DNA from: Ruminiclostridium papyrosolvens DSM 2782
GTDB lineage: Bacteria > Bacillota > Clostridia > Acetivibrionales > DSM-1351
Direction of reading: 5' to 3'
DNA: 64,000 nucleotides
Assembly: GCF_029318685.1 (NCBI RefSeq)
Contig: NZ_CP119677.1
Span: 3,153,001-3,217,000 of the forward strand
This document shows, one piece after another, positions 11,115 through 17,973 of the stretch. The translations under genes were made by a program, and so were the position numbers. Below the pieces are notes generated by a model, which was given only the letters and a program-made list of their open reading frames with translations, ran no database searches and had not been told where the DNA came from. Every line of letters begins with the position of its first letter. Within the stretch, counting starts at the first letter, position 1.

Positions 11115-11398
11115 CTACAGTATAATACATATCAATCCGCCGCTGCCCTCATTTATTATTTTCTGCAAGGTTTCCTGAAGTTTAAGCTGTGCATCCTCCG
11201 GCATTCTGAACAGCTTGTTCTGCAATCCCTCATTTACCAGTTCATGAAGAGACTTTCCGAATATGTTTGAGTCCCATAACTTGCCGGTATCATTTTCAAA
11301 CTCTTTTAGCAAATATGATACTAACTCTTCAGATTGCTTTTCAGTTCCAACCAAAGGAGCTATTTCTGTTTCAATATCAGCCCTTATCATATGTATTG
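11115..11398 (-). CDS. spoIVA: spoIVA, 3' segment (last 91 codons), separated from the gene by element 1
   Basis: The frame encodes the conserved C-terminal end of SpoIVA, the mother-cell ATPase that forms the basement layer of the spore coat: IRADIETEIAPLVGTEKQ, NIFGKSLHELVNEGL and the terminal INEGSGGLICIIL. This end anchors SpoIVA to the forespore through SpoVM in Bacillus. It has no real start: a TTG at 11408 gives six foreign residues, and there is no ribosome binding site. Joining codon 401 of the 5' segment through the core at 11389-11398 gives APSIH-MIRADIETE and a total of exactly 492 codons. It is therefore an exon-like segment that becomes functional only when the intervening DNA is removed. 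Confidence 0.93.
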
Positions 11399-13030
11399 TG
11401 AGGAACAAACAGAAGTATTCTTTCTCTCTCGTAATATCTTATAATCAAAGGGTTTTGTCAATACTTTGAAATATACTTTCAAATCTACTTCATTTTTTTT
11501 ATTTGTATTATATACTTCAATCTTTTCCAGTAATGACTCAATTAGTTTATTGTCCAGTCCCTCCTCGTAATTAATTTCCTTTGCAATTACTTTTCTCAGG
11601 GTTTCAACTGAATAGGTTATTTCTTTGTTTCTCAATTCATCCTCATCAAGTTCCTTTAACCTCATATTCAGTTTATCAATCTCCTGATTGAACCTATTGT
11701 TTCTTCTTTCAAACTCATCGTCTGACAGTCTTCCGTTTATACTTAACTCTAAAAGCTTGTCTTTCATTTTAAGTATTTGGTCAATCTCCATTTTTACCTT
11801 TGCTATATCTTCTTTTATCTTGGATTGAGCTCCCAGACCTGAATACATTGCAATCATTTCGTGTATAATCTCTGAACGGTTAATTATCAGTTCATCATAT
11901 GCTTTCTTTATTATCATATCTAACTCTGATGTATATATGGATGGAGAAGTACAACCCGATTTACCTTTTTCAACGTACCTTTTACATTGCCATACTTCCT
12001 TATTCCCTGAGCTATAACGATAAAGCGTTCTGTAATATGGAGCATTATGCTCTGTGCAAATTATTTTTCCGCTATAGGCATACTTGTTTTGGTAGCTTGT
12101 CTTGTCTTCCGCTGATTGCTTTTCGCTTCTGCCTCTTAATATATAATTTGCCTTTTGCCATATGTCTTCATTTACAATGGGAGGTACAGTTTCTTCATCT
12201 TTATACATAACCCATTCAGTCTGATCCAGATACTTTCTGTCATGAAGCTTATAATCAAATTTGTGGGTTTTGTTTCCGCAATAATATCCCATGTATTTAG
12301 GATTTGTAAGAATATTCTTGATAGTAGAAAAAGAAAACGGATTACCTTTATTGTTTCTTATTCCCATATTATCAAGCCTTGCACTTATTCCTCTTATACC
12401 CATATTTTGTGTGGCGTACATATCAAATATCAGTCTTACTATCTCGGCTTCCTTTTCATCAATTACGAGTTTGCCGGCGTCTTTCCTGTAGCCCCATATT
12501 TTATTATTTCCAAGTACTACTCCTTTTTCAATGGCTCTTTTAAAGCCGAATTTCACTCTCTCAGATATTTTTCTGACCTCGTCCTGGGCTATACTGGACA
12601 TAATTGTCAGCCTCAACTCTGCATCCGGCATTAAAGTATTAATATTGTCAGATTGAAAAAGAACCCCAACCCCATACGACAACAGCTCTTGAGTATACTT
12701 AATACTATCTAAGGTATTTCTGGAGAATCTTGAAATCTCTTTTGTAACAATAAAGTCAAATTTTTTAAGTTTAGCGTCTGAAATCATTTTAAGGAATGAT
12801 TCTCTTTTATTTACACTGGTACCACTTATGCCTTCATCTATATAACCGTCTACGTATGTCCACTTCTGATTTCTTTTAATGAAATCAGAATAGTATTCTA
12901 TCTGGTTTTTAAGAGAGTGAACCTGTTCATCCTTTTCAGTGGATACTCTTGCATAATAAGTAACTCTTAGCTTTAAATCATATATTGATTTACCGGTATT
13001 AAGTTCGTTTCTTATAGTGTACAAATCCAT
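11387..13030 (-). CDS. Large serine recombinase of element 1
   Basis: This 547-residue recombinase should catalyse integration and excision of element 1. I chose the ATG at 13030, preceded by GAGGTG six bases away, over a GTG at 13039. The N-terminal resolvase domain has catalytic Ser30 in YYARVSTEKDEQ and the motifs TKEISRFSRN and DEVRKISERVKFG. A recombinase domain follows with GIRGISARLDNMGIRN. A zinc ribbon comes next (IICTEHN ... WQCKR ... GCTSPS), then a C-terminal coiled coil (~390-480). The last codons lie in the attachment core. After excision the TGA is lost and the frame would continue for 34 more codons on the circle. A consensus SigA promoter lies upstream. Confidence 0.95.
   Translation of the reverse strand: MDLYTIRNELNTGKSIYDLKLRVTYYARVSTEKDEQVHSLKNQIEYYSDFIKRNQKWTYVDGYIDEGISGTSVNKRESFLKMISDAKLKKFDFIVTKEISRFSRNTLDSIKYTQELLSYGVGVLFQSDNINTLMPDAELRLTIMSSIAQDEVRKISERVKFGFKRAIEKGVVLGNNKIWGYRKDAGKLVIDEKEAEIVRLIFDMYATQNMGIRGISARLDNMGIRNNKGNPFSFSTIKNILTNPKYMGYYCGNKTHKFDYKLHDRKYLDQTEWVMYKDEETVPPIVNEDIWQKANYILRGRSEKQSAEDKTSYQNKYAYSGKIICTEHNAPYYRTLYRYSSGNKEVWQCKRYVEKGKSGCTSPSIYTSELDMIIKKAYDELIINRSEIIHEMIAMYSGLGAQSKIKEDIAKVKMEIDQILKMKDKLLELSINGRLSDDEFERRNNRFNQEIDKLNMRLKELDEDELRNKEITYSVETLRKVIAKEINYEEGLDNKLIESLLEKIEVYNTNKKNEVDLKVYFKVLTKPFDYKILRERKNTSVCSSQYI
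11389..11398 (-). other. Attachment core of element 1, recombinase side
   Basis: On the minus strand the core CAATACATAT is preceded by element DNA CTTCTGTTTGTTCCTCA and followed by the spoIVA 3' sequence GATAAGGGCTGAT. The recombinase stop codon (11387-11389) overlaps the core. The likely crossover dinucleotide is CA, at the centre of the symmetric attP that forms on the circle. Confidence 0.85.
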
Positions 13031-13068
13031 TCTACACACCTCGTTTATACTTCTGTTTGTTACTTCTC

Positions 13069-13096
13069 ATTATATTATCCGAATAATATTTGTCAA
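13069..13096 (-). promoter_or_regulatory. Consensus SigA promoter of the element 1 recombinase
   Basis: On the minus strand a perfect TTGACA (13091-13096) and a perfect TATAAT (13069-13074) are separated by 16 bp, about 40 bp upstream of the recombinase start. This suggests vegetative expression rather than the SigE control of skin recombinases. Confidence 0.75.
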
Positions 13097-13109
13097 CTGT
13101 TTTCCCAAC

Positions 13110-13133
13110 AAAAAAGCACTGTTATACAGTGCT
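13110..13133 (-). terminator. Terminator upstream of the recombinase
   Basis: AGCACTG-TATAA-CAGTGCT followed by TTTTTTG on the minus strand. It isolates the recombinase from transcription of the decayed genes to its right. Confidence 0.8.
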
Positions 13134-13151
13134 GCTACTTTGTATATGCTG

Positions 13152-13370
13152 TTAACCAAAGAAAGAATAAGTATCACTTTCACGCTTCCCTATCTTGCTT
13201 AATAAGGCAAGTATAAACGATACAATCATAGATATGCAGAGCAGAATAACTACCAGTATAAACGGTATATACGGATTAATGCTGTAGGTATAGCCAGCCA
13301 GAAATCCCGAAGGTATACTGGAAAATGCGGCCAACGTTTGTACTGCCGAAAACACCTCAAAAGGTAGGTA
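13152..13370 (-). pseudogene. MFS transporter remnant (C-terminal helices)
   Basis: The frame encodes FSAVQTLAAFSSIPSGFLAG followed by a hydrophobic helix (PFILVVILLCISMIVSFIL) and a short basic tail. This looks like the last two helices of a major facilitator family protein. It has no ribosome binding site, and the frame continues upstream without a start into the A9 tract at the end of the radical-SAM fragment. It is probably a deletion scar, and the family call is tentative. Confidence 0.45.
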
Positions 13371-13374
13371 TTTT

Positions 13375-13668
13375 TTACCTCTTCTTTTTTTTTATGGGAA
13401 ATCCTCTTATAGTGCAAAAATGAGGTATAATTTTACTCTTTTTTATCATTTTATCAATCGTGTATAAATCTGCTATATCACCATTCTTATCTATCATATC
13501 CATTATTCTTTGAGTTCCCGATTCCGCACCAAATGTAAGCATTTTACATCCGGCCTTTTCCAGTTTCCTCAAAAATTCCTCACCTTGCTTGACAAGAAAG
13601 TCAGCTCTGACATTTGTATACCATTTAATATTCAGATTTCTAGATACCATCAAATCAATTATTTTCTC
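13375..13668 (-). pseudogene. Radical SAM protein remnant
   Basis: The frame contains NIKWYTNVRADFL, AGCKMLTFGAESGTQRIMD and FCTIRGFPI. These resemble the second half of a B12-binding-type radical SAM core. The CxxxCxxC cluster motif is absent, an in-frame stop lies just upstream (~13,670), and the end runs into an A9 tract that shifts the frame. It is a non-functional fragment, apparently fused by deletion to the MFS remnant. Confidence 0.6.
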
Positions 13669-13732
13669 TTAAAGCAAATATTACCATTTTATGTAATTGT
13701 TGTCAACAAATTCAATTATATCGTTTCCCAAC

Positions 13733-13754
13733 AAAAAAGCACTGATCAAGTACT
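13733..13754 (-). terminator. Terminator after the 44-residue gene; part of a repeated 20-bp motif
   Basis: On the minus strand AGTACT pairs with AGTGCT (one wobble) and is followed by TTTTTTGT. The 20-bp stretch TTCCCAACAAAAAAGCACTG occurs here and again at ~13,102, so the two terminators on either side of the decayed genes share sequence. Confidence 0.55.
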
Positions 13755-13773
13755 ACATTTACAACCTTCATTT

Positions 13774-13908
13774 CTATCCCTTCAGAATTATTTCCTTCGC
13801 TTTTGTATACATTTCTTCGGTTATATACCCCTGTTCAAACAGTCGCTGGTTAATGTGTAGTTTAACTTCCACTATCACAAGCTTTACTGCTTCATCATTA
13901 AAAGCCAT
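13774..13908 (-). CDS. Small 44-residue protein in element 1; candidate directionality factor
   Basis: ATG at 13908 with GGAGGTTA just upstream, encoding 44 residues that begin MAFNDEAVKLVIVEVKLHIN and end TEEMYTKAKEIILKG. It is predicted helix-turn-helix-like in outline, with two amphipathic helices. The C-terminal half resembles short SHOCT-like motifs. It has its own ribosome binding site and terminator on the recombinase strand, so it looks like a genuine gene. Large serine recombinases usually need a small recombination directionality factor for excision, and this is the only other small basic/helical protein in the element. That role is a guess from position and size. Confidence 0.6.
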   Translation of the reverse strand: MAFNDEAVKLVIVEVKLHINQRLFEQGYITEEMYTKAKEIILKG

Positions 13909-14283
13909 CTTAACCTCCAATGTATTTTCTGTCTGTTATAAATTTATTAGTTAAAAGCTTTTTTATGATTTAAATATAAAACCGTTTAATTATTTCCTAT
14001 TACTTTAAAATATTTGTGTACCAAAACAAGTAAAAAACTATTTTGATAACATATAATTAAATGTTATAATGTGTTATTAGTGAGTTGAATTATTTTTGAA
14101 CAAAATAATCGAAAAAGCAATAAAAATATTTTAAAATATCATTTTTTTTACAATAAATGATATCATTAAGGGGAAAAACGTAATATAATGTAAATTAGGA
14201 AAGGTGTACTGGAAATTAATTGCCCTTTGATTTAAAAATAATAAAGATATTATCAAGTATTCCGAGCTTGGAGGGAAATTATA
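13909..14283. promoter_or_regulatory. Divergent intergenic region with a 12-bp palindrome (14156-14167) before agrC
   Basis: This AT-rich region separates the 44-residue gene (leftward) from agrC (rightward). The perfect palindrome AATGATATCATT at 14156-14167 lies about 115 bp before the agrC start and could bind a regulator. I found no convincing consensus promoter. Confidence 0.35.
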
Positions 14284-15576
14284 GTGCTTATAATCGGTCA
14301 GCTTTTAATAAATACAGTATTTGCAATGCTAACTGCCTGCATAACTTACTTATTTCTTAAAGAAAATTTTAATTTAAAAATACAACTGAATTTATTAGTT
14401 GCATTTATTGTTTGTAATGGTATTCTAAACGGTGTTTTTTCTACCTTGTGGATGAGTATACTTCCAATTCCCGACAATTTACAATTTCTTAAATCTATAA
14501 TTTTGACAATCCTAAATATAATATTAACTAAATTCCTGCTACGTGTTGATTGGCTAAAATCCGTTTTATCCTTTTGTTTGATTATACTTTTTATGGGAGT
14601 AGGAAATTTTACAGTACCATTGATTTTTTATTCCGTAGGTATTAATGCAACTCCTGAAACAATAAATAATAATCTGTTTTTATTTTTCGTTATGAATCTG
14701 ATTATTTATTGCCTAGCATTGGTTCTTATAAAATTTATACCTTATGCGAAATTAATCGGAAATATAAAAAACCTTACACCTGTAGGTATTTTACTCATTA
14801 TTACTATTTTGATAATGGCCTCATTTCTTGGAATGCATTTCGTAGTTCACTTTGATCCTGTATCATTTGTTATTGTTCTTGTTTCGTCACTCTCATATTT
14901 CTTTTTCTCTGCTTGGTATATAAACATCTATCATAAATACGAAATGAAGAAGGAAGAACAAAAGCAGCAGGAATTTTATAATGAATCTCTTTCAAATACA
15001 CTTCATGATTTAAGACGTATAAAACATGATCAGATGAATCACCTCTCTGTCCTATACGCTATGCACCAAATGAATAAGTATGAAGCGGCTGCTTCATACC
15101 TGAAAGAAATAATAGGAACAAGTCAAAGTATAGGGAATACTGCTATTTATAACATTAAAAATGCGGGATTATTTGGATTAATATCATCAAAAGTAAACTA
15201 TGCCAATAGCCATGGAATTATTTTTGACTTGGATACCATAGGCGAAGTTGATTCCATTCCTAATATTAAAATTTCTGATTTATGTGAGGTAATAGCCATT
15301 TACCTTGACAATGCACTGGAAGAGGTTTTAAATAACGGAAAGCTTAAGCTGGAAATGAAAATTTTAAGTACTGATGAGAGTCTTACAATAAGAATTGAAA
15401 ACGAATGTGTTAAAACACCTAACACGAAAAGTTCTTCAAAAGGAGCGGATCGTGGAAACGGATTAGTCATTGCAAATAAAATACTCGCTTCATATAAAAA
15501 TATTTCAAGTTCTACTATATTCGATAAGAAAAGAATGGTATTCTCACAAGTTCTGAGAATAGCAAAAGAGGCTTAA
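14284..15576 (+). CDS. agrC: AgrC-like quorum-sensing histidine kinase
   Basis: This 430-residue membrane kinase starts with GTG at 14284 after GGAGGGAAATTATA. The first ~215 residues form six or seven hydrophobic segments, the peptide-sensing domain of AgrC proteins. A short coiled linker (EMKKEEQKQQEF) leads to the H-box RRIKHDQMNHLSVLYAMHQM. A GHKL-type ATPase domain follows, with N-box EVIAIYLDNALEEV and G-box RGNGLVIANKIL. It should bind the cyclic peptide made from agrD and exported by agrB, both on the opposite strand just downstream. No AgrA-type LytTR regulator is present in the element, so the signal must act through a regulator elsewhere or through the kinase alone. Confidence 0.9.
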   Translation: MLIIGQLLINTVFAMLTACITYLFLKENFNLKIQLNLLVAFIVCNGILNGVFSTLWMSILPIPDNLQFLKSIILTILNIILTKFLLRVDWLKSVLSFCLIILFMGVGNFTVPLIFYSVGINATPETINNNLFLFFVMNLIIYCLALVLIKFIPYAKLIGNIKNLTPVGILLIITILIMASFLGMHFVVHFDPVSFVIVLVSSLSYFFFSAWYINIYHKYEMKKEEQKQQEFYNESLSNTLHDLRRIKHDQMNHLSVLYAMHQMNKYEAAASYLKEIIGTSQSIGNTAIYNIKNAGLFGLISSKVNYANSHGIIFDLDTIGEVDSIPNIKISDLCEVIAIYLDNALEEVLNNGKLKLEMKILSTDESLTIRIENECVKTPNTKSSSKGADRGNGLVIANKILASYKNISSSTIFDKKRMVFSQVLRIAKEA

Positions 15577-15588
15577 CAGCCTCTTTTT
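15564..15588. terminator. Bidirectional terminator between agrC and agrD
   Basis: AGAGGCT and AGCCTCT pair around a TAAC loop that contains the agrC stop codon. A-rich and T-rich flanks on both sides allow it to end both agrC and the opposing agrBD transcript. Confidence 0.75.
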
Positions 15589-15590
15589 GC

Positions 15591-15725
15591 TTACTTGAGT
15601 AATGATTTTGGACAGTCTTTTTGATAATAAGACCAAAACCAGCATGCGCCTGCTGAAGCAGTAGCTGCAAATACTCCAATTAGAGATAGAACAGTTAGTA
15701 CCAGTAATTTAATTTTACCCTTCAT
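15591..15725 (-). CDS. agrD: AgrD cyclic-lactone autoinducer precursor
   Basis: This 44-residue peptide has an amphipathic, hydrophobic leader (MKGKIKLLVLTVLSLIGVFA). It ends with a signal and tail reading GACWFWSYYQKDCPKSLLK. By analogy with clostridial AgrD proteins (pattern A-C-x-x-F/W-S/T ... P-K-S-L), Cys28 would form a thiolactone ring with the fifth residue, giving the core CWFWS. The PKSLLK tail is the part cut off by AgrB. Its ATG overlaps the agrB stop (ATGA), so translation is coupled. The family call rests on size, layout and agrB adjacency. The exact mature peptide is inferred. Confidence 0.9.
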   Translation of the reverse strand: MKGKIKLLVLTVLSLIGVFAATASAGACWFWSYYQKDCPKSLLK

Positions 15726-16306
15726 GTAATTATCCCACCCCTCTTATTTTTTGTTAATCTATACACTATTGGTGTAATATTAACCGTTGAAATTAGTGTA
15801 ATTACTGAAATGATATTTGAGTAAATATTAGGAACTATTAGTGTAATAACAAAACACACTACTAATAAAATACTACCCTTTATCCTTAATTCCCTTTTTC
15901 TTTTTTCAGTAACAATCGGTTTTGACGTCAGATCTGCAGGTGCGTATAAAAATGTCAAAACTCCTGCTATAGCAAATAAACCTATATTTAAGAATTTTAT
16001 ACTAAGAATCTGTGCCATATATACAGTACCAAAAATAAATGAAAAGTGGGTAATTACACATCCAATCTGCGTTTTCGCATGTACTCCTCCTAAATAGGAC
16101 TTATTTAATGAAAACACTATCACAGCAACTGCGGCATACTTTAATTGTCCCAGGAGTAATGCAGTAATCAACACTGCAAGTAATTTCAAACCATCTGCAA
16201 AAGCCATATATAAACCATAATCAATTTGTTCAGCTTTTTCTTCTGAGATTCCCGGGATATTTAATACAATCTCTTTAGTGATTTTCTTTGTTATATCCTC
16301 TAGCAC
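15722..16306 (-). CDS. agrB: AgrB peptide-processing membrane protease
   Basis: This 194-residue membrane endopeptidase cuts and cyclises the AgrD precursor and helps export it. The catalytic pair is visible in GGVHAKTQIGC (His76 and Cys83). Hydrophobic segments around 40-65, 85-120 and 145-175 fit the AgrB fold. It starts with GTG at 16306, and the ribosome binding site is weak. It is transcribed toward agrD and overlaps it by four bases. With agrC it makes a full signal-production and reception set, lacking only the response regulator. Confidence 0.92.
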   Translation of the reverse strand: MLEDITKKITKEIVLNIPGISEEKAEQIDYGLYMAFADGLKLLAVLITALLLGQLKYAAVAVIVFSLNKSYLGGVHAKTQIGCVITHFSFIFGTVYMAQILSIKFLNIGLFAIAGVLTFLYAPADLTSKPIVTEKRKRELRIKGSILLVVCFVITLIVPNIYSNIISVITLISTVNITPIVYRLTKNKRGGIIT

Positions 16307-16627
16307 TCAATCACCGCCACTTACATTTTACACCATTATATCCTATTTTTCTTTCTTTGTCGATATTTTTTTCTTTATATTAATATGTTACCAATTAAAT
16401 AATAGCTCTATTACCTACATTAATAAAAAGCGCACATATTGCATAATATTTAAGTTCAGTACTAAATGTTACATTTATTTACTCATATAACTAATATATC
16501 TCTATATTTAAATCAATTTTCATTTGATGCGCCTTCACAAAGAATTTTATCCTGATTTATACATGTTTTTAAAATAATGCTACATCTGGAAACCAATAAA
16601 GTCAAGCTACATCATCGGCACTATAAT
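16307..16627. other. Intergenic region upstream of agrB, nothing recognised
   Basis: This 320-bp AT-rich stretch must hold the agrBD promoter on the minus strand. I found no strong consensus -35/-10 pair, operator or ORF with a ribosome binding site. Confidence 0.4.
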
Positions 16628-16667
16628 AAAAATAAAACCTGCAAATAATTTGCAGGTTTTATTTTTA
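16628..16667. terminator. Bidirectional terminator downstream of the spoIVA 5' segment
   Basis: AAAATAAAACCTGCAAAT pairs with ATTTGCAGGTTTTATTTT and both sides have T-runs. On the minus strand it ends the transcript of truncated spoIVA about 40 bp after its false stop. It therefore shields agrBD from the sporulation promoter while the element is in place. Confidence 0.85.
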
Positions 16668-16704
16668 TGAAACCCCTATTAGAATTTGAACATTAATTTT
16701 AAAG

Positions 16705-17973
16705 TCATGCGGTTTTATTGTACCGGTGCCTCCTCTTGTTGCAATTACGCTTCTGTTTGTACCTAACAATATGTATTGAAGGAGCACTTGCTCTGAGTTT
16801 CACTCCAAACTTGTTACCCTGCTTTATAATCTCCGGTTCTTCCAAAGTAAGTTCTTCCATCTGGGGTGAGACCATACCATAGCCTTTTACCTTGACTTCA
16901 TGTAAGGCATATTCTACCCTGTCGTATTCCTTCTTTACTCTTGCAAGGTCTTTTATAAGGCTTATAAGCTTATGTTCACCCTCTATTTCCATTCCCGACT
17001 CTTCGCTTAAAATTCTATACAAAAGTCCGTCAGCAGCCGATAAATCAATTAGAACATTTCCTTCACCGAGGCTTACCTTATCTATTACTGCCCTTTTGAC
17101 AAACTCATATTGCTCAAAAGAAGGCAGAGCATCCTTTATTGTACGTATTTTTGTGGCTGATTTAAAAGTATCCCTTATTGAAGTTATAATATCTGACTTT
17201 AACCAATGAGAATCCTCCAAAGCTTCAACCCATTTTGGTATATTGATACCTATCTCACAGATTGGGAACTCGTGAAGAACCTTCTCCATAACAGTATCAA
17301 CATCATCAATTCTCATTTGGAGACAGTCCATTGCGATTACTGTTACACCATATCTTTGCTCCATCTCATCACGCAGCTTCAATGTTTCTGAATCTCTGGG
17401 ATTTGTTGAATTGATAATAACCACAAAAGGTTTATTTATAGCCTTCAGTTCTGTTATTACCCTTCTTTCAGCTTCAACATAATCCTCTCTGGGGATATCT
17501 GAAATTGAGCCGTCTGTTGTGATTACAATACCTATGGTTGAATGTTCATTGATTACTTTCTTTGTCCCAAGCTCAGCCGCTTCCTCAAAAGGTATCTGAT
17601 GATCATACCACGGTGTTGAAACCATTCTAGGTGCATTATTCTCCAAATGTCCCATTGCACCCTTGACCATGTAGCCCACACAGTCAATCATTCTTACTTT
17701 AAGCTGTACGTTTTCGTCAATAACAACTTCTACTGCTTCATTGGGGATAAATTTAGGTTCAGTGGTCATTATAGTTCTTCCGGATGCACTTTGCGGAAGT
17801 TCATCTATTGCCCGCTCTTTTTGATATGTGTTCTCTATGTTCGGGATAACCAACAGATCCATGAACCTTTTAATAAAAGTTGATTTTCCCGTCCTGACAG
17901 GTCCCACAATTCCTATGTAAATATCCCCTTGAGTTCTTTCAGCTATTTGCTGGTATATGTTGAATTTATCCAC
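16705..17973 (-). CDS. spoIVA: spoIVA, 5' segment (first 401 codons) with 21-codon foreign tail
   Basis: The protein begins MDKFNIYQQIAERTQGDIY and has the SpoIVA Walker A GPVRTGKST with Lys30, then SASGRTIMTTEPKFIPNEA and RMIDCVGYMVKGAMGH. It uses a GTG start behind AGGGGAGGG. SpoIVA hydrolyses ATP to polymerise on the forespore surface and nucleate coat assembly. Native sequence ends at codon 401 (LRASAPSIH). After the core at 16769-16778 the frame enters element DNA and stops at 16705, with a basic tail (YKQKRNCNKRRHRYNK). The truncated product lacks the C-terminal region needed for localisation. The gene follows gpsA-plsY-der, its usual Firmicutes neighbourhood. Confidence 0.95.
   Translation of the reverse strand: MDKFNIYQQIAERTQGDIYIGIVGPVRTGKSTFIKRFMDLLVIPNIENTYQKERAIDELPQSASGRTIMTTEPKFIPNEAVEVVIDENVQLKVRMIDCVGYMVKGAMGHLENNAPRMVSTPWYDHQIPFEEAAELGTKKVINEHSTIGIVITTDGSISDIPREDYVEAERRVITELKAINKPFVVIINSTNPRDSETLKLRDEMEQRYGVTVIAMDCLQMRIDDVDTVMEKVLHEFPICEIGINIPKWVEALEDSHWLKSDIITSIRDTFKSATKIRTIKDALPSFEQYEFVKRAVIDKVSLGEGNVLIDLSAADGLLYRILSEESGMEIEGEHKLISLIKDLARVKKEYDRVEYALHEVKVKGYGMVSPQMEELTLEEPEIIKQGNKFGVKLRASAPSIHIVRYKQKRNCNKRRHRYNKTA
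16769..16778 (-). other. Attachment core of element 1, spoIVA 5' side
   Basis: On the minus strand the core CAATACATAT is preceded by spoIVA codons GCTCCTT and followed by element DNA TGTTAGGTACAAACAGAAG. Fusing the element arm here with the arm at 11399-11421 gives a 46-bp site with 11-bp perfect outer arms (CTTCTGTTTGT / ACAAACAGAAG), centred on A-CA-T. Confidence 0.85.

Follow-up and report, generated by a model that had tools for sequence, protein, structure and literature searches.

Excisable elements that interrupt a sporulation gene have been described in several spore-formers. The skin element in sigK of Bacillus subtilis and Clostridioides difficile has a large serine recombinase and half-sites inverted around a core, and is excised as a circle (PMC5025042). 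In C. difficile the skin recombinase is constitutive, and control lies with a sporulation-specific small directionality factor (PMC5025042). The gin element of Bacillus cereus ATCC10987 is a non-phage island in gerE with a short core at the exon edges, and gerE is rebuilt during sporulation by a serine recombinase together with an accessory factor (GirC, GirX) (PMC5595907). Likewise, SPbeta in spsM, vfbin in spoVFB and vrin in spoVR (PMC4191935) as well as yin in yabG (PMC10747680) are excisable elements in sporulation genes. Here, a spoIVA gene split by a 5.4-kb element is described in a window of 64 kb (the whole stretch of DNA that was analyzed) from the one-contig genome of Ruminiclostridium papyrosolvens DSM 2782 (5,027,861 bp, completeness 100; working label G000). 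Coat assembly in B. subtilis depends on SpoIVA, and Galperin et al. list spoIVA among the genes of all spore-formers (PMC3533761). The intervening element is very probably of the skin and gin type, and its excision in the mother cell during sporulation would rebuild the gene.

The spoIVA element is likened to gin, which differs in its target, its length of 28.6 kb and its three recombinases (PMC5595907), whereas the element in spoIVA has 5.4 kb, a single recombinase and an attachment site of the circle (attP) that lies inside the recombinase gene. From skin, which is inserted in sigK and has a prophage-like content (PMC5025042), it differs by the lack of any phage structural gene among the open reading frames (ORFs) scanned. 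The other four elements are prophages or prophage-like and have other targets; spoIVA does not occur in the main text of either publication (PMC4191935, PMC10747680). To the sequence-only reading, spoIVA was not known as a described target, and a search of the open-access literature, limited to titles and the beginnings of abstracts, with subscription papers and most preprints outside its scope, turned up no report of an element in this gene. In two of the papers found, the gene is mentioned as a target of sigma-E and as a self-target of CRISPR (PMC5025042, PMC5553647). An anomaly at the same gene was already noticed in 2012, when a table by Galperin et al. gave the spoIVA gene of Clostridium cellulolyticum H10 as "omitted in genome annotation" (Table 2 of PMC3533761). 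There it was treated as an overlooked gene, and the words "interrupted" and "intervening" do not occur in the available text of that article.

Two pieces of spoIVA were identified in the window by profile search, both on the minus strand. The ORF at 16705-17973 matches positions 1-405 of TIGR02836 with 632.6 bits, and the ORF at 11115-11408 matches positions 399-492 with 157.2 bits. Pfam assigns the ATPase and middle domain to the former and the C-terminal domain to the latter. The 5' exon reaches from a GTG start through the core CAATACATAT (exon at 16769-17973, core at 16769-16778, attL), and the 3' exon, which ends at 11115, comprises the last 91 codons together with its own core copy (exon at 11115-11398, core at 11389-11398, attR; all on the minus strand). 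When joined via one core, the exons form a frame of 1,479 nucleotides and 492 codons with the GTG start, a single terminal stop and the junction SAPSIHMIRADIETE; the break lies at codon 402 or close to it. The intervening element (11389-16778, minus strand) has a length of 5,380 bp plus one core copy. The split as such is thereby confirmed: co-directional parts with a core at each edge, the SpoIVA identity of the segment 11,115-11,398, the in-frame join and the core-to-core distance of 5,380 bp had all been claimed in the sequence-only reading and were borne out. In the integrated state, the 5' exon reads on to 16705, giving a truncated product of 422 amino acids that lacks the C-terminal domain. 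A second intact spoIVA, named beforehand as a finding that would speak against this picture, was looked for in the whole one-contig genome, where only these two pieces matched. An assembly artefact was ruled out, as the split recurs across independent assemblies, including the single-contig genomes G000, G002 and G007.

The core CAATACATAT is found at exactly two places in the window, both on the minus strand, with 0.34 copies expected. As two or more copies also arose in 4 of 100 shuffled sequences, the repeat by itself is weak evidence; its placement at both exon edges matters, and the case rests on the palindrome of the circle junction, the reading frames and the relatives. The palindrome is formed by two arms, namely ACAAACAGAAG at 16750-16760 (minus strand) and its inverted counterpart at 11405-11415 (plus strand), which are brought together in the predicted circle junction ACTTCTGTTTGTTCCTCACAATACATATTGTTAGGTACAAACAGAAG. 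In this attP, 21 of 26 positions pair around a central CA, a value reached by none of 3,044 stretches of the window and none of 20,000 random circles. Based on this symmetry, the central CA of ACAATA-CA-TATTGT is the likely crossover dinucleotide. The arms are present in all six elements of the genus, with one mismatch in the right arm in G005 and in R. sufflavum.

Empty sites in related genomes, which had been proposed as a check, do exist. The family is represented by 11 genomes, that of DSM 2782 among them; in six, spoIVA is interrupted at this residue, and in the other five the gene is whole. The joined gene is open in all six split genomes and has exactly 1,479 nucleotides in each of the five sisters, in which the element measures 5,380, 5,895, 6,297, 6,270 and 6,107 bp. 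The sixth element, in R. sufflavum, spans about 39 kb; its exons have only ATACATAT of the core in common and still join to an open frame. In an unrooted spoIVA tree, a branch with 100% support sets the five sisters apart, and R. sufflavum pairs, also with 100%, with G003, in which spoIVA is whole. The R. sufflavum element therefore looks independently gained, the other possibility being a loss in G003.

A class-wide scan covered 393 genomes, 287 of which have the SpoIVA C-terminal domain. Among about 150 matches listed, at least 14, counted by eye, lie in frames of 86-114 amino acids, and six of these 14 belong to members of the genus. In the other eight (G016, G068, G128, G289, G307, G318, G349 and G411) the 5' piece ends at position 403-405 (419 in G411) and the 3' piece starts at 399-407; a full search of these eight genomes found no intact spoIVA. 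In G068, G128, G289, G307 and G349, foreign sequence follows the 5' exon from the core onward, and an att-like arm (for example ACAAACCCAAG) is present there. Both exons are located on one contig in G068 (about 22 kb apart) and G307 (about 26 kb apart), and a single contig of G289 holds the 5' exon, the beginning of the 3' exon and a recombinase. Two further candidates were set aside: G053, where the pieces overlap and look fragmented or frameshifted, and G033, which has an intact copy plus a fragment at a contig edge.

In addition, 64 loci with related recombinases were retrieved from GTDB, and a spoIVA exon abuts the recombinase in nine of them (L025-L030, L032, L034, L072). Two of these, L025 and L026, are identical with G006 and G009 (R. 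papyrosolvens C7 and R. sufflavum DSM 19573). The split also occurs in named contigs of Oscillospiraceae and Defluviitaleaceae. Both spoIVA pieces are present in the genomes of L030 and L032, and only the 3' piece in that of L029. At L084 (10728-11771), spoIVA codons 145-492 lie beside a recombinase and abut it at about codon 145, perhaps a second insertion point. Two further observations concern single contigs: at L028 (862-3745) the recombinase and the spoIVA 5' exon face each other, which indicates either an inverted element or a chimeric contig, and the 124-kb IMG/VR contig L097 breaks off shortly behind a spoIVA-group recombinase (59% identity), with no spoIVA match in the record. Finally, the truncated SpoIVA of the window ends in KTA (16705-16768), an ending found in ten elements (the five sisters, R. 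sufflavum, G289, G068, G349 and G128) and absent in G307, L027, L028, L030 and L032. A role of KTA as degradation tag was considered; the ending is left unexplained.

The stranded 3' exon shows clear signs of use. In the five sisters it has a single amino-acid difference, with a nonsynonymous rate (dN) of 0.0032 against a synonymous rate (dS) of 0.586 (dN/dS 0.006); the ratio is 0.039 for the 5' exon, that of the recombinase being 0.057. Such plentiful silent substitution alongside a nearly unchanged protein shows that the stranded 3' exon is still in use. These values contradict a dead insertion in species which no longer need spoIVA, and spoIIID is present and sporulation of C. cellulolyticum is published (PMC3936895). 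Decay does occur in some lineages, as at L031 (10640-10700), where all but roughly the first dozen codons of the 3' exon next to the recombinase are lost, but as an explanation of the locus itself a dead insertion has next to no probability.

The same constraint would be expected if the gene were split without any excision and its two pieces were translated separately, the 3' one by coupling to the stop of the recombinase, to yield polypeptides that jointly act as SpoIVA. The recombinase stop TGA indeed overlaps the first ATG of the 3' exon (ATGA). However, this ATG is the conserved methionine of the HMIRAD motif, which is present in intact genes as well (L005, L006, L007), and no ribosome-binding site is apparent by eye upstream of it. 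Separate translation would furthermore leave the conserved palindromic attachment sites, the constraint on the recombinase and its circle-only tail unexplained, and is considered quite improbable.

The large serine recombinase is encoded at 11387-13039 (minus strand), with 550 amino acids from a GTG or 547 from an ATG start. Its Resolvase, Recombinase and zinc-ribbon domains are intact, and it is 93% identical to a recombinase of R. papyrosolvens C7. The catalytic motif YARVST is present here and in all 18 recombinase rows compared, which had earlier been chosen by a looser form of this motif. As attP lies inside the gene, excision should complete not only spoIVA but also a longer recombinase (547 to 581 amino acids). 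In the integrated state, the 547-residue protein takes its stop codon TGA from the spoIVA sequence, and its 3' end, 34 codons plus stop, is stranded at 16665-16769 (minus strand), rejoined only in the circle. The circle form would read 581 amino acids in all five sisters, and in R. sufflavum the frame would grow from 549 to 582 (stop-to-stop lengths). The extensions are likewise open in L027, L030 and L032, which makes nine of the 11 elements with both ends read; the remaining two, G068 and G307, have a recombinase whose frame stops ahead of the core.

Of the three frames of the 102-nucleotide extension, that of the circle alone is free of stops in all five sisters, with a ratio of nonsynonymous to synonymous differences (pN/pS) of 0.32 compared to 1.08 and 0.70 in the others. 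The likeness between the tails of the window and R. sufflavum, as well as of the window and L027, lies above all 5,000 shuffles; between R. sufflavum and L027 it is weaker (19 of 5,000). By eye, the extension resembles the tails (TRG.N ... K.NY) of the recombinases of L102 (G068), L104 (G307) and G289, all of which end before the core, and hence appears to be the C-terminus that is normal for this group of recombinases. These findings suggest, tentatively and with more room for doubt than for belief, a reciprocal gene-completion switch, in which integration truncates both spoIVA and the recombinase and excision completes both. The 547-residue form would then be poised to excise with a small partner, the 581-residue form made from the circle would integrate, and the state of the att sites would set the direction; spoIVA would be a long-standing hotspot across Clostridia with freely exchanged cargo.

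A recombinase tree was calculated from 68 rows picked by the resolvase motif; no usable frame was obtained for L066, L083, L086, L087, L088 and L098, and L025, L099 and L101 were not entered. Thirteen of the 16 spoIVA-linked rows are located on one branch of 15 rows (support 99/99), which they share with L033 and the viral contig L097. A second group consists of L102 and L104, and the placement of L072 is unsure, since the reading frame of its recombinase appears to continue in phase into the 3' exon of spoIVA (L072:4857-6770), ending in GGLICIIL. The label "spoIVA-linked" requires 4 changes on this tree compared to 14.6 in shuffles.

With respect to its class, the locus has the co-directional exons of a sporulation gene, a complete joined frame, a serine recombinase in which the domains and the catalytic motif are intact, a core with inverted-repeat half-sites that form attP, and both empty and occupied sites among relatives. 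It is not skin proper, as the insertion is in spoIVA and sigK has elements of its own elsewhere in this genome. No phage structural or lysis gene was found, as Pfam and NCBIfam gave no structural family among seven ORFs of the window. PHROGs, applied to three proteins, linked the recombinase to integrase and invertase families, a small ORF to one weak family of unknown function and the kinase to none. A prophage or prophage remnant was therefore rejected, since the recombinase is the only phage gene among the ORFs scanned. Plasmid and phage records with a match (E up to 1e-50) number 80 and 106, all below 60% identity; among the matches listed, the best reach 32.4% and 45.0%. Thus, of the earlier description as a skin-like excisable element in spoIVA, the excisable, in-frame and recombinase-bearing part stands on the split and whole states, the selection, attP and the distant splits, while a descent from skin does not. 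The element is skin-like in its behavior and nearer to the non-phage gin.

Upstream of the recombinase, a promoter-like sequence of the sigma-A type (TTGACA-N16-TATAAT) was identified at 13069-13096 (minus strand), which is present in four of the five sister elements. A third copy of the attP arm ACAAACAGAAG is located just downstream of it (13050-13060, minus strand), between this promoter and the recombinase start, in the window, G005 and G006; it has one mismatch in G007 and is absent in G002. Its position suggests self-regulation, possibly by binding of the recombinase itself. The stretch CAGTGCTTTTTTGTTGGGAAA before the promoter (13101-13121) was seen by eye to be repeated about 620 bp upstream (13724-13744), which looks like a duplication of a promoter block on either side of the cargo slot.

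A vegetative-type promoter of this kind would fit an ordinary integrative island, one that is excised at random without developmental control, with spores formed by a minority of cells whose site is empty. The varied cargo (agr, surface-polysaccharide, RHS and ABC genes) and the seemingly independent gain in R. sufflavum fit this as well. However, the skin recombinase of C. difficile is also constitutive and is controlled by the sporulation-specific factor (PMC5025042). The wild type of C. cellulolyticum H10 shows a heat survival of 35.7 ± 7.3% (PMC3936895), and 36% survival in an apparently split species would require efficient excision. Such an uncontrolled island is regarded as unlikely.

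A candidate for the factor which directs excision is a small SHOCT-like protein of 44 amino acids, encoded at 13774-13908 (minus strand) and pointed to by conservation and linkage. It is nearly invariant among the five sisters and has only sub-threshold Pfam matches, to SHOCT_2 and GvpG. Relatives were found in R. sufflavum, L027, L028, L030, L031, L033, L102 and L104, and weakly in L097 and L029. The frame of the relative lies at most 120 nucleotides from the recombinase or overlaps it in L027, L028, L030, L031, L033, L097, L102 and L104; in the sisters, cargo lies between the two genes (744-1,594 nucleotides). A sigma-E promoter for this gene was considered, and the upstream stretch is well conserved yet not assignable. 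Known directionality factors have no significant sequence similarity to each other, and that of C. difficile consists of 53 amino acids (PMC5025042, PMC10747680).

The excisable-element reading is thus supported at the level of sequence by the split and whole states, the purifying selection on both exons, the palindromic attP, the splits in distant Clostridia and, if correctly named, a sporulating split species. Several observations weigh against it. The species name is one of them: G002 is only apparently C. cellulolyticum H10, a naming based in part on the published omission of spoIVA in that strain. No excision product has been seen for R. papyrosolvens, and the attP pattern had no match to an excised circle in IMG/VR. 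A promoter for a mother-cell sigma factor could be assigned neither to the recombinase nor to the small gene; the recombinase promoter looks vegetative, and the sister G002 does without it. Constraint on the circle-only tail is weaker than on the remainder of the recombinase (dN/dS 0.28 versus 0.057), and the variable columns of the tail favor third positions only mildly (6, 7 and 11). The 44-residue protein is the best candidate for a directionality factor, for which linkage and conservation are the only grounds; next to the recombinases of L032, L034 and L072 it was looked for without success (for L034, within the only 375 bases upstream), and its match in L029 is weak and 7 kb away. Finally, in G016 and G318 one contig ends and another begins precisely at the core, with overlaps of 11 and 9 nucleotides and no element attached, and two contigs of G411 share 62 nucleotides starting at the core, one of which (G411:C26) continues from the 5' exon and is thus joined (loci of these three genomes: L103, L108, L109, L110, L116, L118). 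A mixture of excised and integrated DNA was considered for these breaks and dropped, as no element is attached and no recombinase like that of the window was found in the three genomes (E up to 1e-40). A match to the Recombinase domain is also missing in G318 and G411, and G016 has seven. The element could be missing from these assemblies or another enzyme could be used; the breaks are left unexplained.

If spoIVA is rebuilt by excision, the element would stay integrated in vegetative cells and in the germ line, where the gene is broken at about codon 402. During sporulation, the large serine recombinase and a directionality factor, with the 44-residue protein as best candidate, would carry out recombination between attL and attR at the central CA. 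If the element behaves like skin, gin and SPbeta, this would release the 5.4-kb circle and restore the 492-codon gene in the mother cell, and as the mother-cell chromosome is later discarded, the spore would keep the element. The change from the 547-residue recombinase, ended by the TGA of spoIVA, to the 581-residue form from the circle may at the same time be a functional switch. SpoIVA acts earlier than GerE. Because coat assembly requires SpoIVA at an early stage, excision is expected early in the development of the mother cell.

The remaining genes of the element are cargo, which differs between the elements examined; the constant part is the recombinase and its site. In the window, an AgrB-like protease (15722-16306, minus strand) and a GHKL-type sensor kinase, AgrC-like by its position (14284-15576, plus strand), were identified by Pfam and NCBIfam matches. 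Between them, a 44-residue AgrD-like precursor of a signal peptide (15591-15725, minus strand), without Pfam match, was named by its size, position and residues. Agr-like signaling genes (14284-16306) thus lie inside an element of a sporulation gene, and the system is not complete, since by eye no AgrA-like regulator is found among the listed ORFs of the element with at least 60 amino acids. A 92-residue fragment of a radical SAM protein, assigned by family match (13375-13653, minus strand), sits where four of the five sisters have a dockerin-bearing GH53 enzyme, the GH53 domain being demonstrated in G005. The cargo of R. sufflavum includes ABC, radical SAM, MFS and RHS genes (11 ORFs scanned), and that of G068 and G307 mostly genes of surface-polysaccharide type (five ORFs scanned each). 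In G349, a HipA-like gene was seen by eye, apparently between the right att arm and the contig edge (L105:1-540).

Furthermore, sigK of R. papyrosolvens DSM 2782 is in three pieces (G000:C1:1668137-1679823; L142, L143), separated by elements of 6,590 and 4,428 bp, and its joined frame is open. Among the 11 genomes of the family (E up to 1e-12), sigK is whole in one (G003), in two pieces in seven and in three pieces in two (G000, G007); for G008 only the 5' piece is listed. The first sigK element (L142:11493-15993) appears by eye to include, besides a 663-residue protein resembling a CO dehydrogenase, an operon for an ABC transporter with a substrate-binding protein. Sporulation in R. papyrosolvens DSM 2782 may therefore need three separate excisions.

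If the germ line routinely carries a broken spoIVA that is restored by excision, programmed rearrangement reaches earlier into sporulation than sigK, gerE and spsM. For annotation this is a warning, as sporulators which appear to be missing spoIVA or sigK may be complete, and genome-based predictions of sporulation could be wrong. The split frame of the recombinase suggests a way, open to direct test, in which an enzyme of the large serine recombinase type could change its direction. From the split at the same site in several distantly related Clostridia, it is likely that spore formation in these cells involves editing of their own genome.

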